A stretch of 12,648 bases of DNA from Schaalia odontolytica. Its GTDB lineage: Bacteria; Actinomycetota; Actinomycetes; Actinomycetales; Actinomycetaceae. The stretch is taken from assembly GCA_958415245.1 (NCBI GenBank), contig CATYYP010000022.1, positions 1-12,648 of the forward strand, written 5' to 3'. The position numbers and the translations under genes were made by a program. This document shows positions 1,191-12,125 of this stretch, in pieces. Under the pieces are notes generated by a model. The model saw nothing but the letters and a program-made list of their open reading frames with translations. It was not told the origin of the DNA and searched no databases. Numbering within the stretch: the stretch's first letter is position 1; each line of letters starts with the position of its first letter.

Positions 1191-1691
1191 ATGTCATCTC
1201 AGAACGCAGCAGACGTCATGTCTCCCGACGGCGTCGACTTCCAGCACGTGTCCCCCAAACTCGCGACCCTGCGCCTCGGTAACGCCCTCGCGCTGTGCGG
1301 TGCTCTGTGTGGCGCGATCTCCGGCCTCGTCCTCATCGTCGACATTCCTGCGCTGTGGTGGCTCATGCTCGTGCCCGCCGCCATCGCACTCTTCTGTCTG
1401 TGGCTCGTGCCCGCCCAGGTGCGCGCCCTGCGCTACGCACTGGCCGACACGGACTTCGTCATCCGCCGCGGCGTCTTCAGTCGCTCGTTGACCCTCGTGC
1501 CCTACGGCCGCATCCAGTACGTCGACATCTACCAAGGCCCCGTGCTGCGCCTGCTCGGCATCTCCACGATCAAGCTGTCGACCGCGAGCGCGAAGACCGA
1601 CGCCACGCTGAGCGGCGTGCCCGTCGCGGACGCAGCCCGTCTGCGTGACGTCCTGGCGGAGCGTGGCTCGGCGGAGCTGATGGGCCTATGA
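1191..1691 (+). CDS. Small membrane protein with bacterial PH domain (YdbS-like)
   Basis: This 166-residue membrane protein carries a bacterial pleckstrin-homology (bPH2/DUF304) domain. Two closely spaced hydrophobic segments (about residues 31-50 and 54-75) form a hairpin in the membrane. The PH domain follows at about 80-150: RYALADTDFVIRRGVFSR, the typical VPYGRIQYVDIYQGP motif and LLGISTIKLSTAS. The larger partner begins inside its stop codon (ATGA, 1688-1691), so the two are made together and probably act as a complex. In Bacillus the equivalent pair YdbS/YdbT has been linked to tolerance of antimicrobial compounds, as I recall it, but the biochemical role is unknown. I infer an envelope role from architecture alone. 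It is divergent from the two-component system, and control by that system is possible but unproven. Confidence 0.87.
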   Translation: MSSQNAADVMSPDGVDFQHVSPKLATLRLGNALALCGALCGAISGLVLIVDIPALWWLMLVPAAIALFCLWLVPAQVRALRYALADTDFVIRRGVFSRSLTLVPYGRIQYVDIYQGPVLRLLGISTIKLSTASAKTDATLSGVPVADAARLRDVLAERGSAELMGL

Positions 1692-3247
1692 GCGCGGACC
1701 TCTCCTCCGACGGCATCGCTCCCGAGGACTGGAAGCCGCTTCACCCGCTCACCTATGTCCCCCGCGTCGCGGGAAGTGTCACGGGTGTCGTCGGTGCGGT
1801 GTCCCTGAGCAATGCGTCCGCGATTGAACGCCTGCTCAACGGTGAGACGCCCGCGTGGCTCGCGACGACCGGCATCTTCCTCGGCCTTCTGATTATTGCG
1901 GGCATCGTCCTAGTCATCGCGGGTGCGTACTGCTACCTGTCGTGGACGAAGACCCGCTACGCGGTGAGCAACACGGCGATCTGGTACCGCGCCGGCATCC
2001 TGAAGCGCACGCAGCGCCACGCGAGGCTCTCGCGCATCCAGACGATCAACGTGTCCTACTCGCTCATCGGTCGCCTCCTGCGCCTGGGCTATCTGGACAT
2101 CGAGGTCGCCGGCGGCACTGACTCGAGCATCAAGCTGGGCCTGCTGCCCGCGCAGCGTCTCGAGGAGCTGCGTGCCCTCCTTCTCGCGCTAGCTTCGGGC
2201 GCGATTGACGAGGTCGTGGATCCCTCCGGCCTCACCGGAGCCTCGGCCCGCGCGGCGATGGCGAAAACCCCGCTGGAGGCCCCCGAGCGCCCCGTGTTCA
2301 AGGTCGGGTTCGTCAAGCTCCTGGCGTCCATGCTGGCGACCATCGACAATGCGATCGCCCTGTTCTTCGGCATCCTCCTCCTGGGCCTCAACGGCTTCCT
2401 CGTGGGTGTCGTCGGGGTGACGTCGATCATGAGCTTCCTGGGCATCCTGGCGGGCGCGTTCAGCCTCCTGGTGGGCGTCTGGGCACGTTTCGATCGAGAG
2501 TTCGGCTTCACCGCGGCGATCGCTGCCGATGGTGTGCGCATCGACCGCGGCCTGACGGCTCGCCGACACGTGACGATCCCCCCGGGGCGCATCCACGCCA
2601 TTGAAGTGACTCAGCCGCTGATCTGGCGACTGTTTGGCTGGTATCGGGTGGAGATCACGCAGGCCGGCAATACGGCGCACACGACGGACGAGAAGAACAA
2701 GGGCATGCAGGTGGATGTGGCCTCCGACGTGCTGCTTCCCGTCGGCAGCCGCGTGGAGGTCATCCAGGCGATCGCGATGGCGATCCCGGACCTGGGGACC
2801 GATGATCCTGACGGCTTCCTTGAGTCCCTTCGCGTGGGCACGGGCGACGACCGTTGGATGACACCGATCCCGCCCAGCGCGAGGATTCTGGATCCTCTCG
2901 TGTATAAGCGCCGAGCCTTCGGCCTGACCGATGCCGTGTTTGCGATCCGCGACGGCTTCTTCAACCTGCGCTTCTCGATCGTCCCTCTGACGCGCATCCA
3001 GTCGGTGTCGCTGCATCAGGGACCCGTTCAGCGCTGGCGCCGCGTCGCTTCGGTGCGCGCCGCGCTGGTCCCCGGACCGGTGGCATCCATGGCCGAGCAC
3101 GTTGAGGCGGGCCGCTCTTTGGAGCTGTGGGCGCAGCTGTCGCAGGCCTCGAAGATTCGCCGCGAGGTCGAGGCTCCCGAGCGCTGGCTCTCTCGCGTCA
3201 CCGCGATCGTCGAGGCAAACTCGCAGCGTGCGGAGGGCGACAAGTAG
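1688..3247 (+). CDS. Multi-PH-domain membrane protein (YdbT-like)
   Basis: This is a 519-residue membrane protein with three bPH2/DUF304-type repeats. The first follows a hydrophobic segment at about 57-84 and holds TRYAVSNTAIWYRAGILKRT and LSRIQTINVSYSLIGRLLRL (about 90-155). The second follows two hydrophobic segments at about 207-262 and holds DGVRIDRGLTARRHVTIPPG and IHAIEVTQPLIWRLFGWYRV (about 280-355). The third, at about 405-470, holds FGLTDAVFAIRDGFFNLRFS and VPLTRIQSVSLHQGPVQRW but has no membrane segment of its own. The ATG overlaps the stop of the preceding small PH-domain gene by four bases, so translation is coupled. The length is close to that of YdbT-family proteins. No catalytic residues are visible. 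A scaffold or envelope-stress role is inferred, and ligand and partners beyond the small protein are unknown. Confidence 0.87.
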   Translation: MSADLSSDGIAPEDWKPLHPLTYVPRVAGSVTGVVGAVSLSNASAIERLLNGETPAWLATTGIFLGLLIIAGIVLVIAGAYCYLSWTKTRYAVSNTAIWYRAGILKRTQRHARLSRIQTINVSYSLIGRLLRLGYLDIEVAGGTDSSIKLGLLPAQRLEELRALLLALASGAIDEVVDPSGLTGASARAAMAKTPLEAPERPVFKVGFVKLLASMLATIDNAIALFFGILLLGLNGFLVGVVGVTSIMSFLGILAGAFSLLVGVWARFDREFGFTAAIAADGVRIDRGLTARRHVTIPPGRIHAIEVTQPLIWRLFGWYRVEITQAGNTAHTTDEKNKGMQVDVASDVLLPVGSRVEVIQAIAMAIPDLGTDDPDGFLESLRVGTGDDRWMTPIPPSARILDPLVYKRRAFGLTDAVFAIRDGFFNLRFSIVPLTRIQSVSLHQGPVQRWRRVASVRAALVPGPVASMAEHVEAGRSLELWAQLSQASKIRREVEAPERWLSRVTAIVEANSQRAEGDK

Positions 3248-3260
3248 AGCGGTGATCGGT

Positions 3261-3272
3261 GACAATGGAGGC
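3261..3272 (+). promoter_or_regulatory. Candidate leaderless -10 box for DUF2520 gene
   Basis: GACAAT at 3261-3266 ends six bases before the ATG at 3273. The six bases themselves read GGAGGC, but that Shine-Dalgarno-like string is only one base from the start, too close to work normally. GCGACA at 3237-3242, 18 bases upstream of the box, is a weak -35 candidate that overlaps the end of the previous gene. Confidence 0.45.
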
Positions 3273-4160
3273 ATGAGTACCCCCGGACGCCTCGGAATCG
3301 GCATCATCGGCATGGGCCACGTCGGACCCGTCATCGGCTCTGCGCTGCGCGCGGTCGGGCACCAGATCGTCGCCGTCTCCGCGTCGTCGGAGGCCTCGCG
3401 CGAGCGCGCCGACGCAATGCTCCCCGGCGTGCCGATCGCCACGCCCGAGGAGGTCGTGCGACGCTCCGAGGTAGTCATCGTGGCCGTTCCTGACGACCAG
3501 ATCAGCCCCCTCGTGAGCGGCCTGGCCGACCTGGGTGCCTGGCAGAGTGGGCACATCGTCATTCACCTGTCGGGTGCTTCCGGCGTGGGGCTGCTCGGCG
3601 CCGCCGCGGGAGCGGGGGCGATCCCGCTCGCCATCCACCCTGCGATGACGTTCACCGGTACCAGCGTTGACGTGGCGCGCCTCGTGGGCACGCCCTTCGC
3701 GGTGACGGCTGCGGCGCCCTTCCTGCCGATCGCCCAGGCCCTCGTCGTCGAAATGGGCGGCGAGCCCGTCGTCGTCGCCGAAGAGGACCGCCCGCTCTAC
3801 CACGCGGGCCTCGCCCACGGCGCCAACTTCATCGCCGGCATCACCGTGCAGACGACCCGAATCCTGGCCGAGGCTGGCATCGAGAATCCCGCCCTGTACG
3901 TGCGCCCGCTTCTCGAGGCCGCGCTCGACCGCGCCCTCACCGAGGGGGTTGCGGGCATCTCCGGGCCCGCCGCTCGCGGGGATGCGGGAACGATCGCCGC
4001 GCACGCGCGCTGCCTCGGGGCCCGGGAGGAGCTCGCCGGGGAGCGCGACACCTACGCGGACATGACCCGCGCCCTGACCCGTCTGCTGCGCGACGCGCGT
4101 CTCCTCGACGAACGGGCCGCGACCAGCGTCGAGGCCGCCCTTCTCGACCCGGGCGCCTGA
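3273..4160 (+). CDS. Rossmann-like and DUF2520 domain protein
   Basis: This is a predicted soluble NAD(P)-dependent oxidoreductase-like protein of 295 residues. The N-terminal Rossmann fold begins GIGIIGMGHVG with the dinucleotide motif G13-x-G15-x-x-G18. VAVPDDQI (70-77) and HLSGASG (98-104) follow, as in this superfamily. The C-terminal helical DUF2520 part starts near AIHPAMTF (120-127) and contains YHAGLAHGANF (176-186), whose H177, H182 and N185 are candidate active-site residues. The frame is open upstream to 3102, but that part overlaps the previous gene in another frame; the Rossmann strand begins just after the ATG at 3273. The same family sits beside panC in mycobacteria (the Rv3603c position) and other actinobacteria. 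A step in pantothenate synthesis, such as ketopantoate reduction, is therefore plausible but unproven. The reaction and substrate are not known from sequence. Confidence 0.88.
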   Translation: MSTPGRLGIGIIGMGHVGPVIGSALRAVGHQIVAVSASSEASRERADAMLPGVPIATPEEVVRRSEVVIVAVPDDQISPLVSGLADLGAWQSGHIVIHLSGASGVGLLGAAAGAGAIPLAIHPAMTFTGTSVDVARLVGTPFAVTAAAPFLPIAQALVVEMGGEPVVVAEEDRPLYHAGLAHGANFIAGITVQTTRILAEAGIENPALYVRPLLEAALDRALTEGVAGISGPAARGDAGTIAAHARCLGAREELAGERDTYADMTRALTRLLRDARLLDERAATSVEAALLDPGA

Positions 4161-4214
4161 TCACCACACACCCAACGAGCCCAAAACGCGGGAGAGAGAG
4201 CGCGCGCAACCTCG

Positions 4215-4237
4215 GCCTCGTCGCGAAAACGCGAGGC
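4215..4237 (+). terminator. Hairpin between DUF2520 gene and panC
   Basis: GCCTCG (4215-4220) pairs with CGAGGC (4232-4237) around an 11-base loop. An alternative inner fold pairs CGCG with CGCG around AAAA. No T-tract follows. It may end the DUF2520 transcript or be a repeat-type palindrome, since its GCCTCGTC half recurs at two other intergenic sites in the window. The whole gap, 4161-4292, holds only this hairpin and the panC promoter candidate. Confidence 0.35.
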
Positions 4238-4279
4238 GTGAGGAAAGCGACTCGATGACGCACCGGCGGGCTGAAGTTG

Positions 4280-4292
4280 TAAGAATAGAACT
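4280..4292 (+). promoter_or_regulatory. Candidate leaderless -10 box for panC
   Basis: TAAGAAT (4280-4286) stands six bases before the panC ATG at 4293. No Shine-Dalgarno sequence precedes the start. The AAGAAT hexamer is the same as the one before the small PH-domain gene, at the same distance. This is among the strongest of the leaderless-type boxes here. Confidence 0.5.
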
Positions 4293-5246
4293 ATGACTCA
4301 CCGTCCTGTCCTGACCCACACGCGTGCCGAGTTGGCCGATGCGCTGTCGCGCCTGCCCGGCACGAAGGCTCTCGTGATGACCATGGGTGCCCTCCACTCC
4401 GGGCACCTGCAGCTCGTGCGCGAAGCCCGCGAACTGGCCGATCATGTGATCGTCACGATCTTCGTCAACCCGACGCAGTTCGCGCCCGGCGAGGACTTCG
4501 ACGCCTACCCGCGCACCCTGGACGCGGACATGGACGCGCTCGAGACGGTGGGAGCGGACCTCGTGTGGGCACCCGCGCCCCAGGACGTGTACCCCACGCC
4601 CGCGACCGTGACGATCGACCCGGGCCCCATCGCGCGCGTTCTCGAAGGCAAGACGCGCCCCACGCACTTCGCGGGCGTCGCGCTCGTGTGCACCAAGGTC
4701 GTCAACCTCGTGCGCCCCGACGTGGCCCTGTACGGACAGAAGGATGCCCAGCAGCTGGCCGTCCTGCGCACCGTTTTCTCCCAGCTGGACATCCCCGTGC
4801 GCGTTCACCCTGTGCCGATCGTGCGCGCCGAGGATGGGGTCGCCCTGTCCAGCCGCAACCAGTACCTGAGCGACGATGAGCGCATCCGCGCCCGTGCCCT
4901 CTCGCGCGCGCTTCGTCGCGGCGCCGAGGCCGCCGAGGCCGGGGCGCAGCCCGCGCAGATCGTCGCCGAGTGCCGCTCGGTTATCGACGCCGAGGGCGGC
5001 ATCGACTTGGACTACATTGCGCTCGTGGACGCGGGGACTTTCGAGATCCTCGCTGGCACCGAGTCCGTGCCCGTCGGCGAGGGCGCTGCCGCGCCCACGA
5101 TCCTGTCCGACGGCTCGCGTGAGGGACGCATCCTCATCGCCGCCAAGGTGGGCACGACGCGCCTCATCGACAACATGGAGGTGCCGCTGCGCGACGCTTC
5201 CGGTCCTGCCGGCCGTCTCGCCGAACGCGCGGGGGACCTCGCATGA
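4293..5246 (+). CDS. panC: Pantoate--beta-alanine ligase (pantothenate synthetase)
   Basis: PanC joins pantoate and beta-alanine using ATP, via a pantoyl-adenylate, in the last step of pantothenate synthesis in the cytoplasm. The 317-residue protein has the nucleotidyltransferase HxGH motif in MGALHSGH (31-38) and the pantoate-binding segment IFVNPTQF (56-63). It also has YGQKDAQQ (147-154) and the KMSKS-equivalent loop SSRNQYL (186-192). It is a little longer than typical PanC (about 280-310), with extra residues near the C-terminus ([14 protein letters not shown] and a tail after NMEVPLRD). The start at 4293 gives the normal N-terminus. The stop overlaps the panD start by four bases (ATGA), so the two enzymes are translationally coupled. 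The product of PanD is the substrate here. Confidence 0.97.
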
Positions 5247-5677
5247 TGGAAATGACCCGCGAGATGGCCATCGGCAAGATCCATCGCGCCGTCGTCACCG
5301 GCGCCGACCTGCACTACGTCGGCTCGATCACGGTGGACGAGGACCTGCTGGACGCCGCGAACATCGTGCCCGGGCAGAAGGTCGACATCGTCGACGTCAA
5401 CAACGGCGAGCGCCTCTCGACCTATACGATCGCGGGCGAGCGAGGCAGCGGCACGATTCAGCTCAACGGCGCGGCCGCCCACAAGGTGACCGTCGGCGAC
5501 CTGGTCATCATCATGGCCTACGCCCAGGTGCCCGAATCTCTCGTGCGTCAGGTGAAGCCGTCCGTCGTCTTCGTCGACGAGGCCAACAAGATCATCAGTG
5601 CAGGTGACCATGCGGGAAGCGTCCCCGAGGATTCCAAGCGCGCCCGCGAGCTGGGGCTGAAGAGCTCCGGCGTCTGA
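5243..5677 (+). CDS. panD: Aspartate 1-decarboxylase (pyruvoyl enzyme)
   Basis: PanD converts L-aspartate to beta-alanine, the co-substrate of PanC. The 144-residue proenzyme has the expected self-cleavage site, G27-S28 in HYVGSIT, where Ser28 becomes the pyruvoyl group of the alpha chain. K12, R57, T60 and Y61 match the E. coli residues K9, R54, T57 and Y58, and [12 protein letters not shown] follows. The three-residue offset from E. coli comes from a short N-terminal extension (MMEM). An ATG at 5243 overlaps the panC stop, and a second in-frame ATG at 5246 is also possible, changing the length by one residue. The protein is slightly longer than E. coli PanD at the C-terminus, as I recall for actinobacterial forms. 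It is the last gene before a strong terminator. Confidence 0.97.
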
Positions 5678-5691
5678 TTGATACGCCGACA

Positions 5692-5730
5692 GGAGCGTCC
5701 ACTCAGCTGAGTGGGCGCTCCCTTGTTTTG
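5692..5730 (+). terminator. Rho-independent terminator after panD
   Basis: GGAGCGTCCACTCAG (5692-5706) pairs with CTGAGTGGGCGCTCC (5707-5721): a 15-base near-perfect inverted repeat with one G-U pair, whose central bases form the turn. CTTGTTTTG follows, giving a short T-rich run. It lies 14 bases past the panD stop and separates the pantothenate genes from the sugar transporter genes. Confidence 0.88.
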
Positions 5731-5859: not shown

Positions 5860-6738
5860 ATGAGCAAGCGAGCGTCTCGCACGCGCCACGCACTCATCGG
5901 ATACGCGTTCCTGTCGCCCGCCCTCATTGGCGTCCTCATCTTCATGGTTGTGCCCATCGGCGTCATCATGTGGGTGAGCCTGTACCGGTGGGACCTCATC
6001 GGGGATACGCGATACGTGGGCCTGGCGAACGTCACGAACGTGCTGAGCGACCCGTCCTTCCTGTCGTCCCTGCGCACGACTATCCTCTTCGTCCTCCTCG
6101 TGGTTCCCATCCAGATCATCCTGGGCCTCCTCCTCGCGAACCTACTGACGAAGGGCGTGCGAGGGACCGTCGTCTATCGCACGCTCATCGTCATCCCGTG
6201 GATCGCGCCTCCGCTGGCCCTCGGCGTTGTGTGGTCGTGGATCTTCGCCCCCACCGGTGGCCTCCTCTCGGCGCTTGCGGGCACGCGACTAGAAATTCTC
6301 GTGTCGCCCACCTGGGCGCTGCCCGCGGCGGCTTTCGTCGTCGTCTGGTCGAACGTGGGGTACACGGCGCTCTTCTTCATCGCCGGATTGCTCGCGATCC
6401 CGCGTGAGCTCACCGAGGCCGCGACCGTGGACGGGGCCTCCTCCTCGCAGGTGTTCTGGCACATCAAGATGCCCCTCCTGCGCCCGACCTTCTTCTTTGT
6501 CTCGGTCACCTCCGTCATCTCGGTCTTCAACGTTTTCGATCAGATCTACGCCCTCACCAAGGGAGGCCCATCCGGCTCCACCGAGGTCCTCGCCTACCTG
6601 ATCTACAAGGAGGCCTTCGAGACCGGAAACGTCGGCCGCGCCGCAGTCATGGCGTGCGTGATGATGCTGCTCCTCATGGGATTGACGCTGGCCCAGAACC
6701 TGTACTTCCGGAAGAGGACCACGTATGAGCTCGTCTAA
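5860..6738 (+). CDS. Sugar ABC transporter permease, MalF-type (CUT1)
   Basis: This is one of two inner-membrane permease subunits that form the channel of a carbohydrate importer. The 292-residue protein has about six membrane segments, starting with HALIGYAFLSPALIGVLIFM near the N-terminus. The EAA loop that docks the ATPase is clear: ELTEAATVDGASSSQVFWHI followed by KMPLLRP. The frame is open further upstream to 5728, but the ATG at 5860 has a good Shine-Dalgarno sequence and begins the usual short basic N-terminus (MSKRASRTRHA). It overlaps the next permease gene by 14 bases. It belongs to the same family as MalF, LacF and UgpA. Substrate cannot be read from a permease; the neighbours suggest an amino-sugar glycoside. 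Confidence 0.95.
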   Translation: MSKRASRTRHALIGYAFLSPALIGVLIFMVVPIGVIMWVSLYRWDLIGDTRYVGLANVTNVLSDPSFLSSLRTTILFVLLVVPIQIILGLLLANLLTKGVRGTVVYRTLIVIPWIAPPLALGVVWSWIFAPTGGLLSALAGTRLEILVSPTWALPAAAFVVVWSNVGYTALFFIAGLLAIPRELTEAATVDGASSSQVFWHIKMPLLRPTFFFVSVTSVISVFNVFDQIYALTKGGPSGSTEVLAYLIYKEAFETGNVGRAAVMACVMMLLLMGLTLAQNLYFRKRTTYELV

Positions 6739-7570
6739 GTCGCACTCGCGTCGGCCCTGGTGGTCGACCCTAGGGATCTACGCGGGGCTGTCGCTGGCCG
6801 CGTTCATCATGGTCGTCCCGCTCCTCTTCAGCTTCGTCACGGCCTTTAAGTCGCCGCAGGACTTCGCCTCGCACTCGCCCTTCGCGCTGCCTTCCCCGCC
6901 CTCCCTGGCCTCGTTCCAGGCGATCCTCACGGGACGGGTCAACTTCGGCGACGCGATCATCACGACGCTTCTCATGGTCGTGGTGATGGTCGTCGGGCAG
7001 CTGGTGTCCTCCGTGCTGGCCGCCTACGCGTTCGCTCGCATCGAGTTCCCGGGGCGCGAGGTCATCTTCTGGCTCTTCCTGGGCACCATGATGATTCCGG
7101 CGTCGGTCCTCGTCATCCCGCTGTACCTCATGATGGCGAAGATGGGGCTCAACAACACCTTCTGGGGCATCGTCATCCCCTTCGTGTTTGCCTCGCCCTA
7201 CGCGGTGTTCCTGCTGCGTCAGTCGTTCCGTCAGATCCCCCAGGAAATCATCGACGCGGCGACCATGGACGGCGCCGGGCAGATGCGCATCCTCTTCTCC
7301 ATTGTCGTTCCCGTGTCTAAGCCGATCATTTCGACGCTCGTGCTCATCACGGTTGTGAGCCAGTGGAACTCGTTCATGTGGCCGCGGATCATCGCCGCGA
7401 CGAGGCCACGCGTCCTCACGGTTGCGACGGCCGCGCTACAGAGCCAGTACAACGCGAATTGGACGTACGTCATGGCGGCGACGACCATCGCGCTTGTGCC
7501 GCTGATCGCTCTGTTCATTGTCTTTCAACGACACATCGTTGAATCGATTGCCCTGACGGGCATCAAGTAA
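6725..7570 (+). CDS. Sugar ABC transporter permease, MalG-type (CUT1)
   Basis: This is the second permease subunit, 281 residues, expected to pair with the preceding one. It has a basic N-terminus (SKSHSRRPWW), about six membrane segments and a periplasmic stretch after the first (FKSPQDFASHSPFALPSPPS), as in MalG-like proteins. The EAA loop reads EIIDAATMDGAGQMRILFSI and then VVPVSKP. Late segments contain SQWNSFMWPRII, a conserved region of this family. The start lies inside the end of the upstream gene (14-base overlap), with AGAGGA six bases before it. No ATPase gene accompanies the pair. Many actinobacterial sugar importers use a shared ATPase of the MsiK/MsmK type encoded elsewhere, which I infer here. 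Confidence 0.95.
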   Translation: MSSSKSHSRRPWWSTLGIYAGLSLAAFIMVVPLLFSFVTAFKSPQDFASHSPFALPSPPSLASFQAILTGRVNFGDAIITTLLMVVVMVVGQLVSSVLAAYAFARIEFPGREVIFWLFLGTMMIPASVLVIPLYLMMAKMGLNNTFWGIVIPFVFASPYAVFLLRQSFRQIPQEIIDAATMDGAGQMRILFSIVVPVSKPIISTLVLITVVSQWNSFMWPRIIAATRPRVLTVATAALQSQYNANWTYVMAATTIALVPLIALFIVFQRHIVESIALTGIK

Positions 7571-7600
7571 CAACACAACCCATCACAACTGGAGGTCTTC

Positions 7601-8923
7601 ATGAAAAGGCGTTTTGTTACCGCTACCGCTCTGATTGGTGCCGCGTCGATGCTGATGGCCGCCTGCTCGCAGGGTGGCAGCGCGTCGAGCGAGGCGGGCA
7701 CGTCCCTGACCCTGCGTCTGTGGGATGATCAGGCTGCCCAGGCGTACGAGGCGGCGCTCCCCGCGTTCACCGAGGAAACGGGGATCACGGTCAATGTTGA
7801 GGTCGTCCCGTGGTCGGACTACTTCACGGGCCTGCGTTCCGAACTCGCCGCGGGCACCGGACCGGACGTCTTCTGGTCCAACACGAACAACTACACGGAG
7901 TACGCCCGCGGCGGCAAGATCGTCAACATTGACGAGGAGTTCCCCGCCTCCGAGCGCGACGGCTGGCTTCAGGGGGCCATCGATCAGTACACGGTTGACG
8001 GAAAGCTCTACGGCGTCCCGGTCCTCACCGACCCGTCGATCGCGGTGTACTACAACAAGTCGCTGTTGGACGCGGCTGGCGTGAGCATCGATGACCTGCA
8101 GAACCTGTCGTGGGATCCGAGCGCCTCCACCGACTCTCTGCGGGAGATCACCCGCAAGCTGACGCTGGACTCGTCGGGCCGCAACGCGGCTGACCCCGCT
8201 TTCGACGCGGACCATATCGTCCAGTACGGATACAACGCTGCGCTCGATGGTCAGGCCATGTTTATTCCGTACCTGGGGTCGGCCGGCGCCACCCTGCAGG
8301 ATGAGAGCGGTCGCTTTACGTTTGCGAGCCCCGAGGGCGACGCCGCGGTCGGCTACCTGGTGGACCTGATCAACAAGGAGCACGTCGCCCCCTCGGCGGC
8401 CGACACGAACGACAACGGCGACTTCAGCCGTGACCAGTTCCTGCAGGGCAAGATCGCTCTGTTCCAGTCCGGTTCCTACAACCTGGCGAACGTGGCAGAG
8501 GGCGCTTCCTTCGAGTGGGGCCTGGCTCCCCAGCCGAAGGGCCCCGCCGGTGCCGTGACGGTCGGTAACTCCGTCGTCGCCGCCGGTTCGACGGCGAGCG
8601 CGAACCCCGAGGCTCAGCACAAGCTGCTGGCATGGCTGGCTGGCAAGGACGGCGGTGCCGCGCTGGGCAAGACCGGCGCCGGCTTCCCCGCGAACGAGAA
8701 GGCCCAGGCGACGTGGACCGCCTACTGGTCGGACAAGGGCGTCGACACTTCGGTGATGGCGAAGACTCCTTCGGGCACGATCATGGCTCCCTTCGGCGCG
8801 AAGCTGGGCGCGGCAATGGACGCGTACAACGGCGTGCTTAAGGAGGTCTTCCTGGGACGCACCGGCGTGCATGAGGGCGTCCAGGCTGCTCAGGACGCCG
8901 CCAACGCGGCGATTGATCAGTAG
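7601..8923 (+). CDS. Sugar-binding lipoprotein of ABC transporter (family 1 SBP)
   Basis: This is the extracellular solute-binding protein that delivers sugar to the two permeases, 440 residues. The signal peptide begins MKRRF, followed by a hydrophobic stretch and the lipobox LMAAC with C22 as the lipid-modified cysteine. A Ser/Gly-rich linker follows. The mature part starts SLTLRLWDDQAAQAYEAALP and shows the family pattern of a short strand, then FTEETGITVNVEVVPW, LAAGTGPDVFW, YGVPVLTDPSIAVYYNKSLL and, later, FLQGKIALFQSGSY. This matches extracellular solute-binding protein family 1. A strong GGAGGT sits four bases before the ATG; the gap to the permease gene is 30 bases. A stable hairpin directly follows the stop and may protect this message so the binding protein is made in excess. 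The sugar bound is not evident from sequence. Confidence 0.95.
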   Translation: MKRRFVTATALIGAASMLMAACSQGGSASSEAGTSLTLRLWDDQAAQAYEAALPAFTEETGITVNVEVVPWSDYFTGLRSELAAGTGPDVFWSNTNNYTEYARGGKIVNIDEEFPASERDGWLQGAIDQYTVDGKLYGVPVLTDPSIAVYYNKSLLDAAGVSIDDLQNLSWDPSASTDSLREITRKLTLDSSGRNAADPAFDADHIVQYGYNAALDGQAMFIPYLGSAGATLQDESGRFTFASPEGDAAVGYLVDLINKEHVAPSAADTNDNGDFSRDQFLQGKIALFQSGSYNLANVAEGASFEWGLAPQPKGPAGAVTVGNSVVAAGSTASANPEAQHKLLAWLAGKDGGAALGKTGAGFPANEKAQATWTAYWSDKGVDTSVMAKTPSGTIMAPFGAKLGAAMDAYNGVLKEVFLGRTGVHEGVQAAQDAANAAIDQ

Positions 8924-8941
8924 TCGTCACAGAATCGGGAC

Positions 8942-8974
8942 AGGCGCCGGCGGGACACGTTCTCGCCGGCGCCT
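8942..8974 (+). other. Stable intercistronic hairpin after the binding-protein gene
   Basis: AGGCGCCGGCG (8942-8952) pairs perfectly with CGCCGGCGCCT (8964-8974) around an 11-base loop. No T-run follows, and the Shine-Dalgarno sequence of the next gene starts five bases later. It looks more like an mRNA-stabilising or partially terminating element between the binding-protein and deacetylase genes than a full terminator. Confidence 0.6.
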
Positions 8975-8991
8975 CAATAAGGAGTACACGA

Positions 8992-9687
8992 ATGGATACC
9001 GTGCTGGGCATTTACGCCCACCCCGATGATGCGGACGTGGACGCGGGCGGGACGCTCGCTCGCTTCGTGCGCGAAGGATCGAGGGTTGTCGTCGCAGTCG
9101 TCACGGACGGTGACGCGGGCGGCTCCGACCAGGATCTGCATCAGCAGATGGGGGAGTTGCGTCGCGATGAACAGCGTCGCGCGTGCGAGCAACTGGGCGT
9201 CACGGAACTCGTCTTCTTCGACGGCTACCCCGACGGCATGGTGACCCCGTCCCACGGCCTCGTGCGCGATATCGTCGCCCTCATTCGGCGCGTGAAGCCG
9301 AACCTGATCCTCACTCTCTCGCCCGAATACAACTGGTCGTCCATCTACGCCAATCACCCGGACCACCGGGCCGTGGGCGCCGCGGTCACGGATGCCGTCT
9401 ACCCGGCCGCGCGCAACCCCTTCGCGTTCCCCGAGCTGCTCGACGAGGGCCTGGACCCCCACGTCGTCGAAGAAGTGTGGTTCCAAGGCGGCCCGTCGAC
9501 GAACCACGTCGTTGAGCTGGACCAGGCAGACGTTGAGGCCAAGGTCAGGGCAGTGCGCGAGCACGTCACCCAATTCGACGACCTCGACCGGATGGAGTCT
9601 TGGATCCGACAGGGCACCCGCGACGCGGGGCAGCCCCACGGCTATGCGGGGGGAGAAGAGTTCTTCCGCTGGGACACGCGCGGGTGA
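8992..9687 (+). CDS. PIG-L/LmbE-family zinc deacetylase
   Basis: This is a predicted zinc-dependent N-deacetylase of 231 residues, of the family that includes GlcNAc-PI deacetylase, MshB and bacillithiol BshB. The zinc site is visible: AHPDD at 9-13 (ligands H10 and D13, with D12 as likely base) and HPDH at 122-125 (ligand H125). VTDGDAGG (37-44) is also typical. There is no signal peptide, so it acts inside the cell. AAGGAG lies seven bases before the ATG. It follows the sugar-binding protein gene and points toward the GH4 gene, so its likely substrate is an imported N-acetylated sugar or glycoside. Mycothiol synthesis (MshB) or detoxification is an alternative, but MshB is usually longer (about 300 residues) and the context here is sugar catabolism. 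Specificity is inferred. Confidence 0.92.
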   Translation: MDTVLGIYAHPDDADVDAGGTLARFVREGSRVVVAVVTDGDAGGSDQDLHQQMGELRRDEQRRACEQLGVTELVFFDGYPDGMVTPSHGLVRDIVALIRRVKPNLILTLSPEYNWSSIYANHPDHRAVGAAVTDAVYPAARNPFAFPELLDEGLDPHVVEEVWFQGGPSTNHVVELDQADVEAKVRAVREHVTQFDDLDRMESWIRQGTRDAGQPHGYAGGEEFFRWDTRG

Positions 9688-9688
9688 T

Positions 9689-9753
9689 GGCCCGCTAGCC
9701 GGCCTGTTTTCCAGACTGTGCCCCTGCCTCGTCCGTACGAGGCCGGGGCACAG
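9689..9753. terminator. Convergent terminator region between deacetylase and GH4 genes
   Basis: The main hairpin pairs CTGTGCCCC (9716-9724) with GGGGCACAG (9745-9753). After a T/C mismatch it continues with GCCTCGT (9726-9732) against ACGAGGC (9737-9743) around a CCGT loop. It is usable from both strands, and both flanking genes end here. No T-run follows on either side. A smaller imperfect palindrome at 9689-9704, followed by TGTTTT, could add termination for the plus-strand operon. Confidence 0.7.
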
Positions 9754-9787
9754 CGCGTCGATGAACGCGCGGAGAGGACGGCGCCCC

Positions 9788-11161
9788 TCAGTCGAAGGCA
9801 GCGGCGACCAGCGGGTTTGTGCGGATCGCCTGGTCGAGCACGTCGCGCGCGACGTTGACCGAGTCGACCAGGGGGTGCAGCGCCAGCGCCTGCCACGCGA
9901 GGCTGCGGTCGCGCTCGCGGGCGGCGTCGATGACGAGATTCTCGCAGGCCTTCACGGATTGGACGAGGCCGAGAGCGGCCCCTTCCAAGGGAGCGACCGG
10001 AATCGGATGGACGCCGGAGGCGTCGACGTCGCAGGGAACCTCGACGACGTCCGTGTCGCGCAGCGTCGGAATCGAGGAGAACCCGCCGTCGCCGTTACCG
10101 ACGTTGAGGATCATGCGCGCAGGAGTATTCGTAGCGAGCGCGTTCATGAGGTCGAGGGCCACCTTCTGGTAGCCGCCGCCGGCGATGTCCTCGGCGCGCC
10201 TGCCGGAACGCTCGTCGACGTCGCGGGCCTCGGCCATGTACGTCGCCTCCCGGTCGGCGAGGGCATCGATCCACGTCCGTCCCGCCTGCTTGGGGTCCGC
10301 GAGGACGGCGTTGTAGAAGGCTTCCTGCTGATCGCGCAGGTACTCGCCGCGGGTTTGGTCCTGGTGAATGCGGGCCATGGCTTCGCGGTGGCAGTAGTAG
10401 TAGAAGAGGTATTCGTTGGGCAGGGCGCCCAGCGCGCGAATCCAGTCCGTGCCGATGGCGCGGGATTCTTCCATGGATCCCAGAGCCTCCTCGTCGGCGA
10501 AGAGGCGCGGGAGGATGTCGCGGCCGTCGACTGAGAGCGAGCGCAGCCAGCCGAGGTGGTTGAGGCCCACGTAGTCGAAGGACACGTCGGTGCGCTCCTC
10601 CTCGGCAACGCCCAGGGCATTCAGCGTGCGATTGACGAGGCCGATGGGAGTGTCGCAGATGCCGATGACGCGCTCGCCGAGCACGGAACGCATCGCCTGG
10701 GTGATGATCCCGGCCGGGTTCGTGAAGTTGATCAGCCAGGCGTTTGGGCACAGACGCTTGGCAGCGCGCGCCAGCTCGAGTGCCGGTCCGAGCGAGCGGA
10801 ACGCGTAGCAGTAGCCGCCCACGCCGACGGTCTCCTGGCCGAGCAGCCCGTGATCGAGGCCGCAGTGCTCGTCGAGGACCCTTCCGCAGGTGCCGCCCAC
10901 GCGCATCGCGGAGAAGACGAAGTCGGCTCCGGGAAGTGCCTCGTTGATGTCCGTCGTTCCGCGCACGGTCGGGGAGTGCGGGAAGTCAAGCGAGGACAGC
11001 ACTGCCATCATCGCGTCGAGCCTGCGCGCGTCGGTGTCGTACAGGACGACGCGGTCGACGTCGAGGGACGCGTAGGCTCCCTGACCCGATCGCGAGCGGG
11101 CCAAGACGTCGATCATCGCGGGGACCCGGAAGCCCCCTCCTCCGACGATGGTGAGCTGCAT
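9788..11161 (-). CDS. GH4 NAD-dependent glycosidase (6-phospho-glucosidase type)
   Basis: Family 4 glycosidases cleave glycosides by an NAD+- and Mn2+-dependent oxidation/elimination mechanism, mostly on 6-phospho-sugars. The 457-residue protein opens with the nucleotide motif IVGGGGFRVP (5-14) and VVLYDTD (38-44). It then has SAMRVGG (84-90), LINFTNPAGI (143-152), the metal-site CDTP (C169-P172) and GLNHLGW (199-205) with metal ligand H202. NEYLFYYY (249-256) holds the likely catalytic tyrosine. The ATG at 11161 is preferred because the Rossmann strand follows at once and AGAGAGG (11177-11171) lies nine bases upstream. An ATG at 11170 would add three residues. The gene is divergent from the sugar kinase and convergent with the deacetylase. 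CDTP does not match the CNxP form I associate with beta-specific members, so alpha or beta specificity is left open. Confidence 0.93.
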   Translation of the reverse strand: MQLTIVGGGGFRVPAMIDVLARSRSGQGAYASLDVDRVVLYDTDARRLDAMMAVLSSLDFPHSPTVRGTTDINEALPGADFVFSAMRVGGTCGRVLDEHCGLDHGLLGQETVGVGGYCYAFRSLGPALELARAAKRLCPNAWLINFTNPAGIITQAMRSVLGERVIGICDTPIGLVNRTLNALGVAEEERTDVSFDYVGLNHLGWLRSLSVDGRDILPRLFADEEALGSMEESRAIGTDWIRALGALPNEYLFYYYCHREAMARIHQDQTRGEYLRDQQEAFYNAVLADPKQAGRTWIDALADREATYMAEARDVDERSGRRAEDIAGGGYQKVALDLMNALATNTPARMILNVGNGDGGFSSIPTLRDTDVVEVPCDVDASGVHPIPVAPLEGAALGLVQSVKACENLVIDAARERDRSLAWQALALHPLVDSVNVARDVLDQAIRTNPLVAAAFD

Positions 11162-11170
11162 GGCGGGCAT

Positions 11171-11237
11171 CCTCTCTGGATACGTATAGTGGTGGCTCAG
11201 TGACATATTGTAGTCGCGCTCACGTCTAGGAGGACCC
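11171..11237. promoter_or_regulatory. Divergent promoter region, GH4 gene / sugar kinase
   Basis: This short region must start both genes. On the minus strand TACAAT (11212-11207) is a consensus -10, giving a leader of about 30-40 bases with an AGAGAGG Shine-Dalgarno sequence. On the plus strand TATTGT (11206-11211) overlaps it almost completely, and TATAGT (11185-11190) is a second choice. AGGAGGA (11228-11234) precedes the kinase GTG. ATACGTAT (11180-11187) is a perfect 8-base palindrome and a possible operator core. No good -35 hexamer is visible for any of the boxes. Confidence 0.5.
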
Positions 11238-12125
11238 GTGGCATCTCGAGTACCCGCCGCATCTCAGTTCGCGGTGTACGGTCCGACGTTTCTCGACGTC
11301 GTGATGGGTCCCCTCGAGGGGCCTCCGGTTCCGGGTCGCGAGGCCTGGGTGGAGGGAGCTCTCATGTGCGCGGGCGGAGCGGCGAACCAGGCGATTGCGC
11401 TAGCGCGCCTGGGTGCGCCCGTGCGCCTCTACAGCCGCGTGGGCGTCGATCAGATGGGCACATTCGTGGACGAAATGCTCGCGCGCGAGGGCGTGGACAC
11501 CTCGTCGTGCGAGCGCGTGGGCGATCAAAACGTCACCGTCTCCCTGTCCTTCGATGGCGATCGCGCGATGACGACGCGCGGGACGACCGCGCTGCCACGC
11601 TTGGGAGGCGACGCGCCGGCGTGCCTGCTCGCGGATGTGCGGGGAATCAGCGAGAACGGCGAGGTTGTCTCGTCTTGGCGCGAGCGCGGGACCTGGGTGC
11701 TGGCGGATACAGCCTGGGACGATGCCGGGGCCTGGGACCCGGCCGACCTGGAGGTCTTGCACCTGGCCGATGTGTGCACGCCCAACGAGGAGGAGGCGCT
11801 CGCCTACGCGCGCACCGACAGCGTGGAGGAAGCTGCGCGGTGGTTCGCGTCCTTTGGGTGCGACTGCGTGGTTACCTGCGGCAAGAACGGCGTGATTGCG
11901 TGCGTCGACGGACAGATCCTGCGCGTGCCAGCGCCCGCCGTGAAGGCGGTGGATACGACGGGCGCGGGAGACGTCTTTTCGGCGGGGCTGGCCTGGGCGC
12001 GCCGAGCTCGCCGCATGCCGTGGCCCGAGGCGCTCGCCCTCGCCTGTGCGGCCGCCGCACACTCCACGCAGGGGATCGGCGGATCCTCGTCGGCACCCTA
12101 CGCGGCCGACCTCCCGGGTGCGTGA
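11238..12125 (+). CDS. PfkB/ribokinase-family sugar kinase
   Basis: This is an ATP-dependent carbohydrate kinase of 295 residues. The first family signature is visible as GGAANQAIALARLG (46-59), and the second as VDTTGAGDVFSAG (238-250), with the anion hole GAG and catalytic base D245. TPNEEE (181-186) and VTCGKNGVIA (212-221) are the usual intermediate motifs, and D20 near the N-terminus is the likely substrate-binding acid. The GTG start has a strong AGGAGGA three to four bases upstream. It is divergent from the GH4 gene across 76 bases and probably co-regulated. The natural reading is phosphorylation of the imported sugar, before or after cleavage, since an ABC importer does not phosphorylate its cargo. 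PfkB kinases also act on fructose, ribose or nucleosides, so the substrate is inferred from context only. Confidence 0.92.
   Translation: MASRVPAASQFAVYGPTFLDVVMGPLEGPPVPGREAWVEGALMCAGGAANQAIALARLGAPVRLYSRVGVDQMGTFVDEMLAREGVDTSSCERVGDQNVTVSLSFDGDRAMTTRGTTALPRLGGDAPACLLADVRGISENGEVVSSWRERGTWVLADTAWDDAGAWDPADLEVLHLADVCTPNEEEALAYARTDSVEEAARWFASFGCDCVVTCGKNGVIACVDGQILRVPAPAVKAVDTTGAGDVFSAGLAWARRARRMPWPEALALACAAAAHSTQGIGGSSSAPYAADLPGA

Follow-up and report, generated by a model that had tools for sequence, protein, structure and literature searches.

Which sugar is served by a locus that joins an ATP-binding cassette (ABC) sugar importer to a deacetylase, a glycosidase and a kinase, and do these genes form one pathway? 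The question is raised by a 12,648-nt stretch of Schaalia odontolytica DNA (contig CATYYP010000022.1; here called the window, to the whole of which all coordinates refer), in which genes for a CUT1 importer, a PIG-L deacetylase, a glycoside hydrolase of family 4 (GH4) and a PfkB-family kinase lie together. Our tentative answer, which we would rank a little below an even chance, is that the locus may encode a pathway for an N-acetylglucosamine (GlcNAc)-containing glycoside or short oligosaccharide, running through import, deacetylation, 6-phosphorylation and GH4 cleavage. With protein families assigned by Pfam and NCBIfam profiles, the importer, PIG-L, GH4 and PfkB genes were all found to be intact reading frames with Pfam matches above curated cut-offs. 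The modules and residues named in the original prediction (AHPDD and HPDH in PIG-L; GGGG, C169 and H202 in GH4; DTTGAGD in the kinase) were confirmed where it had placed them. The genes are as follows.

5860..6738, + strand: CUT1 permease A (UspA/UgpA-like); Pfam BPD_transp_1, 69 bits; best NCBIfam match UgpA, 161 bits, below its cut-off of 335.
6725..7570, + strand: CUT1 permease B (UspB/UgpE-like), overlapping permease A by 14 bp; Pfam BPD_transp_1, 69 bits; NCBIfam UgpE, 135 bits, below its cut-off of 297.
7601..8923, + strand: solute-binding lipoprotein (SBP), a UspC homologue; SBP_bac_1, 136 bits; nearest solved structure Mycobacterium tuberculosis UspC, 343 bits.
8992..9687, + strand: PIG-L deacetylase, predicted to be cytosolic; Pfam; catalytic motif from residue 9.
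9788..11161, - strand: GH4 glycosidase dependent on nicotinamide adenine dinucleotide and metal, of the phospho-sugar type, with an alpha-type CD motif; PF02056 and PF11975; reading frame extendable to 11206.
11238..12125, + strand: PfkB-family sugar kinase; Pfam; no assignable substrate class.

In the proposed pathway, the UspABC-type importer, driven by a shared MsmK-like ATPase of the genome, would take up the glycoside, and the cytosolic PIG-L enzyme would strip its acetyl group. The glucosamine unit thus freed, still in glycosidic linkage, would next be phosphorylated at C6 by PfkB, after which GH4 would oxidise C3 and eliminate the aglycone to yield glucosamine-6-phosphate (GlcN-6-P), cutting a linkage more likely to be alpha than beta, and NagB would convert GlcN-6-P to fructose-6-phosphate. 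What was observed directly is the genes themselves, the conservation of their association, the likeness of the subsite residues to ChbF and of the ligand residues to UspC, and the presence of NagB in related genomes; every catalytic step, the order of the steps, the linkage and the sugar are what we infer.

The first point to settle is whether the glycosidase acts on a phosphorylated sugar. According to the extract of PMC13197890 (the papers cited here by PMC number are represented by extracts), the ChbF residues that form the -1 subsite are, in Salmonella numbering, C172, N150, H203, Y258, T113, E112, R96, R282 and N173. When the window GH4 (numbered from the Met at 11161) was aligned with ChbF and MelA of Escherichia coli and with 47 more rows from actinobacteria, it was found to retain eight of these nine residues (R94, E110, T111, N148, C169, H202, Y251 and R271), and the same eight are kept in all 47 of the other actinobacterial rows. 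In MelA, a GH4 enzyme whose sugar is not phosphorylated, both subsite Arg residues are replaced by Thr and Tyr258 falls on a gap; the two Arg and the Tyr (R94, R271 and Y251 in the window) are those that we take to contact the phosphate. No domain of the phosphotransferase system (PTS) was detected among the proteins scanned at the locus, and another phosphorylating enzyme would therefore be needed. The earlier proposal that a kinase stands in for PTS phosphorylation is thus reasonable in the light of the retained subsite, and its description of the system as PTS-free holds for the locus and fails for the organism, as PTS enzyme IIC (EIIC) genes occur elsewhere in all eight related genomes.

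For the kinase itself, in which the DTTGAGD motif occupies residues 239-245, 24 NCBIfam models gave a match and none exceeded its own cut-off. GlvA and BglT require a 6-phospho-hexopyranoside and prefer alpha and beta linkages, respectively, and the phosphate can come from a beta-glucoside kinase (extract of PMC10628242). The best matches of the window PfkB are monosaccharide kinases, and this favours a different order in which PIG-L deacetylates, GH4 cuts a glycoside that carries no phosphate and PfkB acts last, phosphorylating the monosaccharide set free, comparable with the archaeal Dac/GlmA system, where a deacetylase is likewise followed by a glycosidase (extract of PMC6566704). We nevertheless regard this order as unlikely, because the eight ChbF subsite residues, including the two Arg that are both Thr in MelA, persist without exception in the 47 rows.

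The importer points to the class of sugar that might reach these enzymes. The SBP is 45% identical to M. tuberculosis UspC, its best solved relative, and the UspC cleft residues D145, Q218 and Y292 are present in the alignment as D144, Q218 and Y293; among eight further cleft residues checked, D47, D216, D270 and D273 are identical, and E48 is similar (Asp in the window). In the extract of PMC4929945, UspC is described as preferring amino sugars and as binding chitobiose and GlcN-6-P weakly (apparent dissociation constants of 38 mM and 27 mM), with the effect of both ligands being reduced in alanine mutants of D145, Q218 or Y292. The same extract presents mycobacterial UspABC as two permeases and an SBP in an operon without an ATPase gene, an arrangement that the window shares along with the mutated ligand residues, whereas the mycobacterial operon comprises three genes and in the window PIG-L comes next on the same strand. 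No ATPase gene was found at the locus; each of eight related genomes has one MalK/MsmK-type OB domain, which in genome G001 (G denotes same-genus genomes and L fetched loci) lies within a 418-codon ABC ATPase frame approximately 16 kb from the first permease gene.

The linkage cut by GH4 was approached through the ninth subsite position, where N173 of ChbF is replaced by Asp170 in the window, by Asp in 46 of the 47 other rows and by Asn only in L126. Asp also stands at this position (a CD motif) in 1u8x and 6dux, which are named as 6-phospho-alpha enzymes, and Asn (CN) in ChbF and in 5c3m, 1s6y and 1up4, which are named as 6-phospho-beta-glucosidases, 5c3m and 1s6y being near-identical. Among the best 120 of 7,979 GH4 homologues over threshold, 119 carry CDTPIG and the remaining one lacks the searched pattern. 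The Asp of the CD motif is presumably the acid in GlvA. Since Asp170 matches the 6-phospho-alpha enzymes and not ChbF or the 6-phospho-beta enzymes, an alpha linkage appears likelier for the substrate than the beta linkage of chitobiose. In a tree of 21 rows built on 206 N-terminal columns only, a branch with a support of 100 parts all characterised rows and the divergent L126 from the remaining actinobacterial rows, and the window enzyme does not group with GlvA.

This residue is also where the strict analogy with ChbF and chitobiose drawn in the original prediction breaks down. A pathway in which beta-1,4-linked diacetylchitobiose enters through the importer, undergoes deacetylation by PIG-L and phosphorylation by PfkB, and is finally cleaved by GH4 in the manner of ChbF can draw on the binding of chitobiose by UspC and on the action of Dac-type deacetylases on its acetylated form. 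However, it is improbable in view of the near-universal CDTPIG among those best 120 homologues, with Asp in the alpha chains and Asn in the beta chains and ChbF, and of an affinity of UspC for chitobiose of only about 38 mM (extract of PMC4929945). Alpha-linked glucosaminides are a better guess than diacetylchitobiose.

The pathway that we prefer further presupposes that the modules belong together, and co-occurrence in the genus and in other loci indicates that the ABC importer, the intracellular PIG-L, the phospho-type GH4 and the kinase do so. The original prediction was to fall if the modules did not co-occur in other genomes; they do co-occur elsewhere. Among 34 genomes of the genus (G001 and 33 others), GH4 was found in 12 and the SBP in 10, all within those 12, and a PIG-L domain of any type was present in 9 of the 12 genomes with GH4 and in none of the 22 without it (Fisher test, 4e-6, uncorrected for kinship). 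Six of these nine PIG-L genomes are near-identical and two (G007 and G023) are close, leaving about three independent cases, and one of the nine, G004, carries a secreted-type PIG-L beside GH4. PfkB was found in 15 of the 34 genomes, 11 of them with GH4. A search with PIG-L yielded 167 loci, of which 80 were kept (L027-L106). The best 10 (L027-L036) all have a UspABC-type importer, and seven of them also have GH4 and PfkB, with the full set of modules occurring in three arrangements (the window type in L027-L030, L034/L036, and L035); in L034 and L036, both from Actinomyces, the genes for the kinase, the two permeases, the SBP and PIG-L share one orientation. In L036 (Actinomyces ruminis CtC72), PIG-L (L036:6983-7686) and a DeoR regulator each match in two pieces, by draft-assembly error or decay. 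None of the 70 loci with a less similar PIG-L (L037-L106), 23 of which are shorter than 10 kb, contains GH4, PfkB, a permease, either tested SBP type, DeoR or GH38. The clustering of the modules is thus more than chance, because gene order is kept in related genomes and the modules are absent from these 70 loci.

To place the pair of GH4 and PfkB in a wider setting, 40 GH4 loci from actinobacteria were examined, comprising 20 of 26 matches from one search and 20 of 61 from another. In 31 of the 40, three of them near-identical window types, PfkB is divergent from GH4 and no more than 1.5 kb away, and one further locus (L192) has a same-strand PfkB; of the remaining eight, L122 has its GH4 at a contig end and L110, L112 and L126 have no nearby PfkB. 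A DeoR regulator is nearby in 13 of the 40 loci, all 13 with a divergent PfkB. A UspC-type SBP was counted in seven (one of these, in L178, being too weak to keep), and none of the three SBP types was found in 17 (L178 set aside). A CUT1 importer of another type is present in 12 loci, nine of which carry a secreted PIG-L (L182 at 12960-15689, L111, L113, L173, L181, L183, L184, L185 and L188, from five families) positioned after the importer in GH4/PfkB cassettes. These secreted proteins have NEW3 and CBM9 domains, signal-like N-termini as judged by eye, and AHPDD and HxxH motifs, the Pfam domains having been seen in L111, L113 and L182; their deacetylation would take place outside the cell. 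In L119, L121, L122, L123 and L176, a GH38 alpha-mannosidase lies within 6 kb of GH4 together with another CUT1 importer, with a divergent PfkB in four of the five, and these neighbours suggest that the substrate in those genomes is alpha-linked and may carry mannose. Two further neighbours were observed: the GH4/PfkB cassette of L114 encodes, between its PfkB and SBP genes, a 522-aa protein with weak DUF3604 likeness (L114:12398-13966), and in L175 and L177 GH4 is flanked on one side by a relative of an M64-type peptidase and on the other by a relative of a flavin amine oxidase.

The window-type PIG-L occurs in three of the 40 loci (L107-L109, near-identical), and a PIG-L of either type accompanies 12 of the 31 divergent pairs. 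In the midpoint-rooted PIG-L tree, the secreted clade (support 100) and the Actinomycetaceae clade (support 72) hold the secreted and window types apart, from which a deacetylase has apparently joined the GH4/PfkB pair twice. No other observation speaks as strongly for placing deacetylation and GH4 cleavage in a single pathway as this apparent double recruitment. A broader model, possible although clearly doubtful, is that Actinomycetia share a kinase-primed, PTS-independent alpha-glycoside route built on the divergent GH4/PfkB core, with interchangeable importers and trimming enzymes (secreted PIG-L, cytosolic PIG-L and GH38). In that case deacetylases would have been added on two or more occasions, exposing the amino group required by GH4 chemistry, and the natural substrate would be an alpha-glucosaminide such as a glucosamine-inositol glycan.

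Several observations weigh against a single pathway of the kind proposed for the window. Four of the 40 loci (L174, L175, L177 and L180) have GH4 without PfkB or an importer. In the fetched stretch, 19 of the 31 divergent pairs have no PIG-L, so that the pair does not necessarily have an amino sugar as its general substrate. Two genomes, G007 and G023, have the importer and PIG-L near the pan genes with GH4 24 and 31 kb away; moreover, the GH4 match of G007 (L112:9256-10651) spans two reading frames and no PfkB in this genome was over threshold, so that the importer/PIG-L half may do without GH4 and PfkB. No operator common to the importer and GH4/PfkB promoters was found in the alignment of six rows, the UspC cleft residues F402, E410 and D414 are not conserved in the window SBP, and the alpha-linkage reading depends on a single residue. 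GH20 hexosaminidases, which offer an alternative handling of GlcNAc glycosides, are present in five of eight related genomes, and the kinase's likeness to monosaccharide kinases belongs on the same side.

The two halves of the locus might accordingly be unrelated neighbours, with UspABC and PIG-L salvaging an amino sugar or cell-wall fragment, GH4 and PfkB serving an unrelated alpha-glycoside, and the adjacency being incidental. Apart from the 19 pairs without PIG-L, such a separation is suggested by L031, L032 and L033, in which importer and PIG-L have no GH4/PfkB nearby, by UspABC-like importers without PIG-L in L134, L135, L137, L118, L120 and L189, and by a UspABC-like importer in G046 without GH4. 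We still judge it to be improbable, since within the genus GH4 is present in all ten SBP genomes and all nine PIG-L genomes, since three arrangements unite all modules, and since other families have a PIG-L of a distant type alongside GH4/PfkB.

Within the single pathway, the part assigned to PIG-L follows from the chemistry expected of its partner. GH4 chemistry acts at C2/C3, where the metal grips the C2 and C3 substituents, so that a 2-acetamido sugar would be hard to accept and a deacetylase would be needed. ChbF is reported to need prior de-N-acetylation by ChbG (extract of PMC13197890). The deacetylase at the locus is of the PIG-L and not the ChbG (YdjC) type, YdjC having been searched at the locus only. 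Its AHPDD and HPDH motifs occupy residues 9-13 and 122-125, and H10, D12, D13, H122 and H125 are invariant across 20 aligned rows; as the catalytic motif begins at residue 9 and leaves no space for a signal peptide, the enzyme is predicted to be cytosolic. Its nearest likenesses are LnmX and then diacetylchitobiose deacetylases, and it is 94-99% identical to four database records, one of them named S. odontolytica and one Schaalia sp., which places the window in the S. odontolytica group. A role in thiol biosynthesis (mycothiol or bacillithiol), allowed for in the original prediction and suggested by the family relation and a BshB1 score of 76.6 bits, is very unlikely, given that the MshB, Mca, BshB1 and BshB2 models score 45, 54, 77 and 68 bits, far under NCBIfam cut-offs of 224, 277, 183 and 195, and that MshC and BshC are above cut-off in none of 10 related genomes. 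Sub-cut-off MshC matches are expected from the related cysteinyl-tRNA synthetase. NagB, the last enzyme of the proposed pathway, is above cut-off in nine of 10 related genomes, the remaining genome being 70% complete.

The layout of the locus seems to comprise three transcription units: permease, permease, SBP and PIG-L on the + strand; GH4 on the - strand, convergent with PIG-L; and PfkB on the + strand, divergent from GH4. These units are delimited or interrupted by the following elements.

5692..5721, + strand: hairpin 3' of panD, a probable panD terminator and upstream border of the importer operon, from the sequence and an alignment of six S. odontolytica-group rows, with panD named by eye.
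8943..8973, + strand: strong RNA hairpin separating the SBP gene from the PIG-L gene; folding energy of 8930-8975, -30 kcal/mol (z -6.0).
9718..9751, no strand assigned: hairpin in the convergent PIG-L/GH4 gap, a probable two-way terminator; -35.6 kcal/mol for 9700-9765, z -4.5.
11162..11237, no strand assigned: divergent GH4/PfkB promoter region of 76 bp, with hardly any differences among six aligned rows and with AGAGAGGA before GH4 and AGGAGG before PfkB.

The hairpin at 8943-8973 may act as an attenuator or as a protector of the mRNA 3' end and could reduce the expression of PIG-L compared with that of the SBP. The length of 76 bp assumes that GH4 starts at 11161; this Met is most likely the start, because the closest full-length homologues have 457 aa and AGAGAGGA precedes it. 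Upstream, positions 1688-5677 encode a protein with three bPH_2 stretches, a DUF2520 Rossmann protein, panC and panD (the last by eye); panC/panD also precede the importer operon of L031 and L032, which follows two genes later. The records of L027 and L030, titled Xylanimonas cellulosilytica 352_XCEL and Sanguibacter keddieii 250_SKED, contain a locus that is 92-100% protein-identical to the Schaalia window, and these names are probably wrong.

How far does such a pathway depart from known systems? The E. coli chb operon (the ChbBCA PTS, ChbG and ChbF) likewise applies a deacetylase and a 6-phospho-sugar GH4 to an N-acetylated glycoside and shares all but one of the listed subsite residues, whereas the window has an ABC importer and PfkB for the PTS, PIG-L for ChbG and Asp170 for Asn173. 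GlvA-type 6-phospho-alpha-glucosidases have the C-D motif in common with the window enzyme and also, within the N-terminal part that was compared, the -1 subsite residues, although in the tree the window clade and GlvA are separate; the partner of GlvA is a PTS. In two kinase-then-cleave systems, FrlD (PfkB family) with FrlB and BglK with a 6-phospho-beta-glucosidase, the intact glycoside is first phosphorylated by an ATP-dependent kinase and is cut afterwards; BglK is named in the extract of PMC10628242. Unlike the window, both the BglK and FrlD/FrlB systems have unrelated substrates and no deacetylase. In Streptomyces, MsiK is a shared ATPase, and diacetylchitobiose is handled by an intracellular N-acetylglucosaminidase and is not known to pass through a deacetylase and GH4. 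The likeness of Streptomyces DasABC-MsiK to the window lies in the ABC import of an N-acetylated disaccharide, diacetylchitobiose (extract of PMC6167110). In Thermococcus, a PIG-L-family deacetylase (Dac) precedes the glycosidase without a PTS, but GlmA belongs to GH35 and acts on unphosphorylated glucosamine-GlcNAc (extract of PMC6566704), whereas the window glycosidase is a phospho-type GH4. Hence, PTS-free deacetylase chitobiose pathways, ABC import of diacetylchitobiose and the pairing of a phospho-GH4 with a deacetylase in E. coli are already known. No description of the deacetylase/GH4/importer combination with PfkB, or of its spread in Actinomycetia, was found in the open-access papers searched.

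A phospho-type GH4 is usually read as a partner of a PTS; if our reading is true, the PfkB-primed actinobacterial pair would extend the deacetylate-then-cleave logic of ChbG and ChbF beyond the PTS. UspABC-type importers would gain a metabolic partner, and the database name '6-phospho-beta-glucosidase' would be corrected for a large clade. The locus would also offer a hint at amino-sugar use by oral actinobacteria.

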